45,526 nucleotides of DNA, from positions 1-45,526 of the forward strand of contig JAAXXZ010000011.1 in assembly GCA_013334245.1 (NCBI GenBank), given 5' to 3'. How positions within the stretch are numbered: position 1 is the first letter of the stretch; every line of letters begins with the position of its first letter. The notes beneath the pieces are model-generated. The model did no database searches. It saw nothing but the letters and a program-made list of their open reading frames with translations, and was not told where the DNA came from. Below are positions 35,832-37,560 of this stretch, one piece after another. Source of the stretch: Candidatus Moraniibacteriota bacterium. Lineage in GTDB: Bacteria; Patescibacteriota; Minisyncoccia; Moranbacterales; UBA1568. The position numbers and the translations under genes were made by a program.

Positions 35832-36896
35832 ATGGAACAGTCGGATTCCGCATCGGAAACGGTCGTCAAAAAGAAAGGCATGTCGCGGACGATCGGGATG
35901 GTTGCGGTTTTTTTTGTCGCGATAGCCGTTGTCATCGTCGTCGGATTCCTTTCGTTGAAACGCAGTGTCGATACATTCCGCGGAAGTCGCCAGGATGCCG
36001 TCGTCGTAACGTTCGGTGAACGGGAGAGCGCGGTCGCGCTCGCCACCGAACTTCGGAAGGCCGGGATAATCCGATCCGAACTCCCGTTCCTGTATTACCT
36101 GTTCCGCGAAGACCTTCGGACGAAACTGAAAGCGGGAAACTATTCGTTGAGCGGGACCATGCCGATACGGGATATCGTCGCGAAGATCGTCCGTGGGGAG
36201 ACGGTCGAGAAGGGGATCAAGGTTACGTTTCCCGAGGGTATGACCGCGGCGGAGATGGCGGCACGTCTTGATGCGAACGGATTGCCCGGAGCGGCGTTTC
36301 TCAGTCTGGTCACGTATCCCGATGCCGCGCTTCGGGGCCGATATCCGTTTCTCGCGAGTCTTCCTGTCAGCGCGACGCTCGAGGGGTTTCTCTTCCCGGA
36401 CACGTACTTCTTCGACCCGAAGCTCGGGGCGGATGCGATCATCGCGAAAATGCTCGACGGATTCAGGGCTCGCGCGGCGCCGATGTTGTCCGGAGTGACC
36501 GTCGACAAGCGGTATGCGTCGCTCATACTCGCGAGTATCGTCGAGATGGAAGTGCGGACGGACGCGGACCGGAAAACGGTCGCGGACCTGTTTCTTCGCC
36601 GCATCGCCTCGGGCATGCCGCTTCAGAGTGACGCGACGGTGCGATATGCGCTCGGCGAGACAAAGGTGAAGCACTCGCTCGAGGATATCGCCATCGATTC
36701 CCCATACAATACGTACCAGTACAAGGGGCTTCCTCCTGGACCGATCTCGAACCCGGGTGTTTCCTCGATCGGGGCGGTTCTCGATCCTACGCCGAACCGG
36801 TATCTGTATTTTCTCAACAATCCCGATACCGGCCAGACCATATTTTCCGAGACGTTCGAAGAACATGTCGCGAACAAGGCGAAAAACGGACTTTGA
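35832..36896 (+). CDS. mltG: Endolytic murein transglycosylase MltG
   Basis: A 354-residue YceG/MltG protein: cytoplasmic N-terminus, one membrane helix (about 20-42), a LysM-like region, then the transglycosylase domain. Motifs: LEGFLFPDTYFFDP, ASIVEMEV with the catalytic Glu, PLQSDATVRYAL and SPYNTYQYKGLPPGPISNPG. It cuts nascent glycan strands to end peptidoglycan chains. The catalytic loop reads EMEV where EKEA/EKET is usual, but the Glu is kept. A heptamer array follows its stop directly. Confidence 0.93.
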   Translation: MEQSDSASETVVKKKGMSRTIGMVAVFFVAIAVVIVVGFLSLKRSVDTFRGSRQDAVVVTFGERESAVALATELRKAGIIRSELPFLYYLFREDLRTKLKAGNYSLSGTMPIRDIVAKIVRGETVEKGIKVTFPEGMTAAEMAARLDANGLPGAAFLSLVTYPDAALRGRYPFLASLPVSATLEGFLFPDTYFFDPKLGADAIIAKMLDGFRARAAPMLSGVTVDKRYASLILASIVEMEVRTDADRKTVADLFLRRIASGMPLQSDATVRYALGETKVKHSLEDIAIDSPYNTYQYKGLPPGPISNPGVSSIGAVLDPTPNRYLYFLNNPDTGQTIFSETFEEHVANKAKNGL

Positions 36897-36897
36897 A

Positions 36898-36933
36898 CAG
36901 TCACAAGTAGAAAAGTCAGAAGTCAAAAAGAGG
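36898..36933 (+). repeat. Heptamer array after mltG
   Basis: Units spaced 7 nt with an AGT core (AGTCACA, AGTAGAA, AAGTCAG, AAGTCAA, AAAGAGG), with a one-base phase slip in the middle. It starts at the mltG stop codon and matches the AAGTCNA family after murJ and rnhA. Confidence 0.6.
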
Positions 36934-36954
36934 TTTTGAATTTTTGAAATGGCG

Positions 36955-37005
36955 GGAAACAGAAAACCCGCTACACGTATGCAGAGGATTCTCTGTGTAG
37001 CGGGT
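36955..37005 (-). terminator. Terminator of the - strand gene
   Basis: ACCCGCTACAC (36966-36976) and its exact complement (36995-37005) form an 11-bp stem with a small inner AGAG/CTCT hairpin. On the - strand it is followed by TTTTCTGTTT, and it lies 4 bp after the - strand stop codon. Confidence 0.8.
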
Positions 37006-37008
37006 GCG

Positions 37009-37353
37009 TTACATGACGATGTCGTCGGGATGCGTCGCGGAGATAAAGAGCTGCACGTTCGGACGAGTTTTCCCAGAGCGCTCGAGAGCGTCGCAAACCG
37101 CGGTCCGGACCAGGTCACCAAGCATCCGGCGTTCGAAGGGCTGCATCCTTTCTGGGAGATGCATGATTTCGACGTAAACCTCATCCCCCAATCCGTAAGA
37201 CATCATGTCGGAAGGGAAGAGGTTTAGCATGTCTCTTTCCGATTGCACGCCAGAACTCGGCGTCGACACGACCGCCTTCACGATCGAATTGTGCAAGTCG
37301 TTCAGCGCCCGCTCATCGAGCGGGGGCAGGCACCATGTTCTGTTGACGATCAT
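37009..37353 (-). CDS. Small conserved-looking protein, possibly tautomerase-like
   Basis: A 114-residue protein, the only convincing protein gene on the - strand. It has a full set of signals: consensus promoter, AAAGGAG 9 nt before the ATG, and a strong terminator. The sequence (NRTWCLPPLDERALNDLHNSIVKAVV, SERDMLNLFPSDMMSYGLGDEVYVEI, LPERMQPFERRMLGDLV) resembles small CPR proteins with a 4-oxalocrotonate-tautomerase/MIF-like strand-helix-strand pattern; this is from memory and weak, and the N-terminal catalytic Pro of tautomerases is not at residue 2. It is divergent from dnaJ across a CIRCE site, so it may be a stress gene. Confidence 0.7.
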   Translation of the reverse strand: MIVNRTWCLPPLDERALNDLHNSIVKAVVSTPSSGVQSERDMLNLFPSDMMSYGLGDEVYVEIMHLPERMQPFERRMLGDLVRTAVCDALERSGKTRPNVQLFISATHPDDIVM

Positions 37354-37430
37354 TTTTTCTATCTCCTTTGCTGACGAAGTGATTTCTGCAGCATTAATGT
37401 TTTGAAGTTACTTGTCCACTTTTCAAGTAA

Positions 37431-37459
37431 ATTATAATACAGAATTAAATAAATGTCAA
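37431..37459 (-). promoter_or_regulatory. Perfect consensus sigma-70 promoter for the - strand gene
   Basis: TTGACA (37459-37454), exactly 17 bp, TATAAT (37436-37431) on the - strand. It is the only promoter in the window that matches both consensus boxes fully at the ideal spacing. It lies 18 bp from the CIRCE element. Confidence 0.85.
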
Positions 37460-37460
37460 A

Positions 37461-37466
37461 TATACT
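37461..37466 (+). promoter_or_regulatory. Promoter -10 box for dnaJ
   Basis: TATACT on the + strand, just before the CIRCE element; a start near 37473 would place CIRCE at the beginning of the transcript, the usual arrangement for HrcA repression. The -35 is not clear and the region overlaps the divergent promoter. Confidence 0.45.
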
Positions 37467-37477
37467 GATAAAGGAGA

Positions 37478-37504
37478 TTAGCACTCTCTTGTTGGGATTG
37501 CTAA
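37478..37504 (+). promoter_or_regulatory. CIRCE element (HrcA operator)
   Basis: TTAGCACTC, 9 nt, GATTGCTAA. This matches the CIRCE consensus (TTAGCACTC-N9-GAGTGCTAA) at 17 of 18 arm positions with exact spacing. HrcA binds CIRCE to repress groE and dnaK operons. It lies 56 bp before the dnaJ ATG and between the divergent promoters. hrcA is not in the window. Confidence 0.85.
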
Positions 37505-37560
37505 TCTTTTCATTTCGCGTTACAGTAGAGGGGATTCAATTCTTCCAAAGATGACGACGT

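Follow-up and report, generated by a model that had tools for sequence, protein, structure and literature searches.

In the 45,526-nucleotide stretch analyzed here (the window), a dnaJ unit under HrcA control and a separate, laterally mobile gene independent of HrcA quite probably share one intergenic region, the second gene coding for a tautomerase-fold protein that lacks the N-terminal catalytic proline (Pro1). According to the structural models, the best reading of this 114-aa protein is a new tautomerase-fold member without Pro1, invisible to Pfam, in a variable slot beside dnaJ (Table 1).

Table 1. Features of the mltG-dnaJ region, in window coordinates.
Feature	Coordinates	Strand	Evidence
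mltG/yceG, bordering the variable slot on the left	35832..36896	+	Pfam YceG, 3e-74
Intrinsic terminator of the divergent gene	36956..37005	-	Hairpin, -22.2 kcal/mol, z -3.8 (GC-rich stem about 37005-36966)
Divergent gene, 114 aa (MIVNRTWCLP...)	37009..37353	-	ORF; predicted tautomerase-superfamily fold
Shine-Dalgarno AAAGGAG	37363..37369	-	Read from the sequence, 9 nt before ATG
Divergent sigma-70 promoter	37431..37459	-	TTGACA 37459-37454, N17, TATAAT 37436-37431; 12/12 consensus; expected start near 37424
CIRCE, dnaJ operator (predicted HrcA site)	37478..37504	.	Pattern search, 1 mismatch; family-wide conservation
dnaJ promoter	37498..37526	+	TTGCTA 37498-37503, N17, TACAGT 37521-37526
dnaJ, 363 aa	37561..38652	+	Pfam DnaJ, DnaJ_C, and DnaJ_CXXCXGXG, all above cut-off

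A preliminary description of this DNA had placed a CIRCE operator between dnaJ and a divergent minus-strand promoter, and this operator is real. The site reads TTAGCACTC-TCTTGTTGG-GATTGCTAA, departs from the consensus TTAGCACTC-N9-GAGTGCTAA at one position, and is the sole match in the window when up to three mismatches are allowed, with no match in 100 shuffles. Its position before the -10 box of dnaJ also stood, with the refinement that the right arm GATTGCTAA itself supplies the -35 box. Upstream of dnaJ, CIRCE was found in 24 of the 27 family genomes with a readable dnaJ start, and the right arm GATTGCYA runs into TTGCYA-N17-TANNNT, the -35 and -10 boxes of dnaJ, in 18 of 19 scored upstream regions. 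The asymmetric arm GATTGCYAA is fixed across the family (loci L029-L055), a departure from the palindrome that the embedded -35 box explains. This layout holds whatever gene stands upstream, be it the unrelated 190-aa gene of genome G002 or, in several others, a gene of 330-350 aa that probably codes for a membrane protein. Overlapping the -35 box and conserved family-wide, CIRCE is, on sequence grounds, the operator of dnaJ and not of the divergent gene.

The genome, assigned to Ca. Moranbacteria (Patescibacteria), contains six CIRCE elements, located at hrcA, dnaK, groEL, groES, clpB, and dnaJ, where the genes behind the sites were assigned by reading translated ORFs. It also encodes HrcA (PF01628, above cut-off), and a perfect CIRCE precedes the hrcA gene. 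The earlier suggestion to look for hrcA and for CIRCE before groE and dnaK was therefore borne out, and the existence of an HrcA/CIRCE regulon that includes dnaJ is supported by these sequence matches. At hrcA, dnaK, and groES, the -35 box TTGAC sits inside the CIRCE spacer, unlike at dnaJ, where it lies in the right arm. HrcA bound to the dnaJ CIRCE would cover the -35 box and block the polymerase, and heat shock would release it, as in the canonical HrcA circuit. We infer that HrcA represses dnaJ by combining the anatomy of operator and promoter, which was observed, with repression as it is understood from known biology.

The divergent gene carries a full set of expression signals of its own. 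Its minus-strand promoter, Shine-Dalgarno, and terminator had all been described as perfect or strong, and each withstood closer analysis (Table 1). A simple terminator scan did not report the hairpin, which is followed on the minus strand by the T-rich sequence TTTTCTGTTT; no dispersed repeat of the terminator block was found in the genome. Equivalent promoters, and hairpins of the same form in the same place, occur in the three other genomes of the genus that hold the gene (G005, G003, and G001), and AAAGGAG is kept in all four. The view that this is the only clear minus-strand gene is consistent with ten long minus-strand ORFs, a nonexhaustive selection, which had no Pfam match and were read as antisense frames. 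Directly before the Shine-Dalgarno (window positions 37354-37424, minus strand), a small hairpin is present in the same four genomes and forms a perfect palindrome, CTCGGAATTCCGAG, in G001. Reading it as a thermosensor was rejected because its folding energy was no better than that of shuffles.

The preliminary description further proposed that HrcA bound at CIRCE could control both directions, which would make the 114-aa protein a new member of the heat-shock regulon. Under such control, HrcA would block the upstream contacts of the polymerase at the divergent promoter or act by looping. In its favor, the divergent pair with CIRCE between its members occurs in all four genomes of the genus that hold the gene, and CIRCE is the only recognized operator in the shared intergenic region. 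Moreover, in two genomes, it ends just 18 to 21 bp upstream of the divergent -35 box. However, this distance is not conserved, being 18 bp in the window genome (G000), 21 bp in G005, 85 bp in G003, and 75 bp in G001. The divergent promoter and CIRCE do not overlap in any of the four, and the center of CIRCE is 68 to 135 bp upstream of where divergent transcription should start (about 68-71 bp in the window and G005). Thus, at no conserved position does CIRCE overlap the promoter of the 114-aa gene or lie just downstream of it, and the layout, read from the sequence, is not that of a repressor site for this promoter. The asymmetry of CIRCE, in turn, is accounted for by the dnaJ promoter.

Comparison with relatives points the same way. 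Within the family, the divergent gene was not found outside the genus; since CIRCE is kept family-wide where the gene is absent, the dnaJ CIRCE is independent of the divergent gene. The expectation that relatives would keep the pair together with CIRCE held in the four genomes of the genus and failed beyond it, where no relative of the gene was seen near CIRCE or dnaJ. Control of both directions by one CIRCE is therefore unlikely, and membership of the 114-aa protein in the heat-shock regulon is not supported. Because its strong consensus promoter stands outside CIRCE, the divergent gene is most likely free of HrcA control and probably not under heat-shock control, with some effect of HrcA conceivable in the two short-spaced genomes (window and G005).

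The history of the slot between mltG and dnaJ favors a mobile gene. A dnaJ-adjacent copy is confined to four of the six genomes of one genus, and the four proteins form one group (support 86/88). Of the remaining two genomes, G002 has a different, unrelated 190-aa gene in the slot, on the dnaJ strand (L034, reverse strand 742-1314), and the contig of G004 extends no more than about 250 bp beyond CIRCE on the upstream side, with no copy elsewhere in that genome. In the 190-aa product, a signal peptide and membrane segments are apparent. When G001 (locus L028) was compared with the window, the flanking DNA proved 92-96% identical on both sides (92-99% where it runs up to the slot), and the slot protein just 37%. 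Right after the mltG stop codon, identity drops to about 0.5 from a level of about 0.97, and the divergent segment reaches from there to the dnaJ start (window positions 36897-37560), the dnaJ promoter region included. Such similar flanks around such dissimilar slot proteins indicate that the slot was exchanged between lineages. Furthermore, when G000 is compared with G005, dS is 0.48 for the slot gene versus 1.72 for dnaJ, so the slot gene appears younger than dnaJ in this pair, and near-identity begins abruptly within the terminator.

It is important to consider that the G001 version could instead reflect an assembly error or the very fast evolution of a single gene. G001 is a metagenome bin, and its protein has a long branch within the group of dnaJ-adjacent members. 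Nevertheless, its reading frame is intact, its own promoter, Shine-Dalgarno, and CIRCE are in the expected places, and both flanks retain their high identity up to the slot. In addition, the too-young slot gene of the G000-G005 pair is an independent observation. We thus regard error or fast evolution as improbable, and the simplest account of the sequences is a single-gene unit that was exchanged between lineages, presumably by recombination. The divergent gene would then have probably arrived by lateral transfer, as a single gene with its own transcription that entered the slot between mltG and dnaJ in an ancestor shared by some members of the genus.

The 114-aa protein had no match in Pfam, NCBIfam, PHROGs, or PDB sequences. 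The structure prediction that the preliminary description had recommended, made with AlphaFold2 and seven homologues, gave a model of pLDDT 86 and pTM 0.81 with the order E-H-E-E-H-E. In Foldseek searches with this model, tautomerase-superfamily structures (cis-CaaD, fused 4-OT, MIF, CHMI, and MSAD), along with designed cages, occupied the top ranks throughout (E about 1e-4, probability 1.00). A second model, built for a relative with a Met-Pro start (G361), reached a pLDDT of 81 and also matched the superfamily (E about 1e-5). For both models, the probability was 1.00 and E values ranged from 1e-5 to 1e-3, with moderate TM-scores (0.5-0.7). The beta-alpha-beta fold of the superfamily, in its single or double form, is therefore present as a prediction, and the N-terminal catalytic proline is absent, as the window protein starts MIVN. 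The segment LFPSDMMSYGLG presumably resembles the MIF segment VVPDQLMAFGG, a resemblance that we did not use as evidence. Between G000 and G005, the dN/dS of about 0.21 fits a protein under purifying selection.

The tautomerase and MIF profiles of Pfam matched no family member scanned, and membership in the superfamily is suggested by the predicted fold together with the Met-Pro starts of relatives. Since about 3% of accepted superfamily sequences have no Pro1 (PMC5818174), its loss alone does not exclude membership. Ile, which the window protein has in this place, is among the commoner replacements (PMC5818174), and a tautomerase-fold structure from A. baumannii has Ser there (PMC9813972). 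The 114-aa protein would consist of two beta-alpha-beta units from which Pro1 has been lost. Members of the superfamily form trimers; by analogy, this protein would most likely be a trimer whose ligand or substrate is a small polar metabolite, with any turnover relying on chemistry not based on Pro1.

Relatives were detected in 18 of 384 genomes of the class and 4 of 380 of the phylum, counting the window genome. About half of these scattered patescibacterial proteins start with Met-Pro behind a good Shine-Dalgarno (e.g., MPVIKVWCLP and MPIIKVWCLP, compared with the Met-Ile start of MIVNRTWCLP in the window), and consequently the family includes Pro1 forms; these were found in G361, G681, G610, G742, G029, and G776. 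A candidate Pro1 start in G114 (ATA-CCT) was rejected, as the Shine-Dalgarno points to an upstream ATG. No viral relative of the protein was confirmed. Some individual loci showed further peculiarities. In G088 (L012, 1145-1489), a separate 114-aa ORF beginning MPLIQLYY lies on the same strand 12 bp upstream of the homologue and has a weak match to the Pfam Tautomerase profile (E 0.08); the two genes may form a pair in which one tautomerase-fold protein has Pro1 and the other does not. A single in-frame TAA interrupts the G467 homologue (L088, about 1155-1535) near codon 22, which probably points to a pseudogene or to an error in the sequencing. The G660 member (L105) has no ATG, GTG, or TTG near its start, where an ATA directly before a Pro codon and 9 nt after AGGAG may serve as the start codon.

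The predicted fold raises the question of whether adjacency to dnaJ is meaningful after all, with the protein acting as a small ATP-independent chaperone (holdase) in the manner of a catalytically dead MIF. Human MIF P2A, which has no tautomerase activity, still suppresses misfolded SOD1, so the chaperone activity of MIF does not depend on the catalytic proline (PMC5833700). A MIF/tautomerase fold without Pro1 and the grouping of the dnaJ-adjacent members would suit this role. On the other hand, the distribution of relatives outside the genus, away from dnaJ and CIRCE, speaks against it, and chance landing in a variable slot can explain the adjacency. The MIF family PF01187 likewise matches neither the protein nor, above cut-off, anything in 124 genomes of the order. 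A holdase role is possible by analogy, and we judge it very unlikely. Least credible of all is the fuller version, in which a catalytically dead tautomerase/MIF-fold protein was recruited in this genus as a holdase of the HrcA response and shares CIRCE with dnaJ.

These results emphasize that the locus is best seen as two independent units, of which the heat-shock side is ordinary. For the other, the predicted fold gives an identity to a scattered patescibacterial family unseen by Pfam and NCBIfam models. In this family, forms with and without Pro1 coexist and offer a usable set for asking what function follows the loss of Pro1. Moreover, a slot next to dnaJ appears to be exchanged among close relatives.

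As in the known class I heat-shock regulon, the system described here has the CIRCE palindrome, hrcA, and sites at dnaK, groE, hrcA, and dnaJ. Unlike in that regulon, dnaJ and clpB each have their own CIRCE, and one arm of the dnaJ site, invariably asymmetric, also serves as the -35 box; these differences add nothing beyond the known HrcA/CIRCE principle. With the long-chain tautomerases (cis-CaaD, Cg10062, fused 4-OT, and MIF), the protein shares two predicted beta-alpha-beta units in about 114 residues and, in about half of its wider family, the N-terminal proline. It differs from them in its own missing Pro1, in matching no tautomerase or MIF model of Pfam or NCBIfam, and in its identity of only 8-22% to solved members. 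Further parallels are the non-Pro1 tautomerase folds of AbTFM from A. baumannii (PDB 7yxv), the Nostoc protein 4lkb, and NJ7 (PDB 9c4l, its V1P mutant), all three of them among the Foldseek matches, whereas the window protein, for which no connection with type VI secretion or the malonate semialdehyde decarboxylase subgroup was seen, represents a different sequence family.
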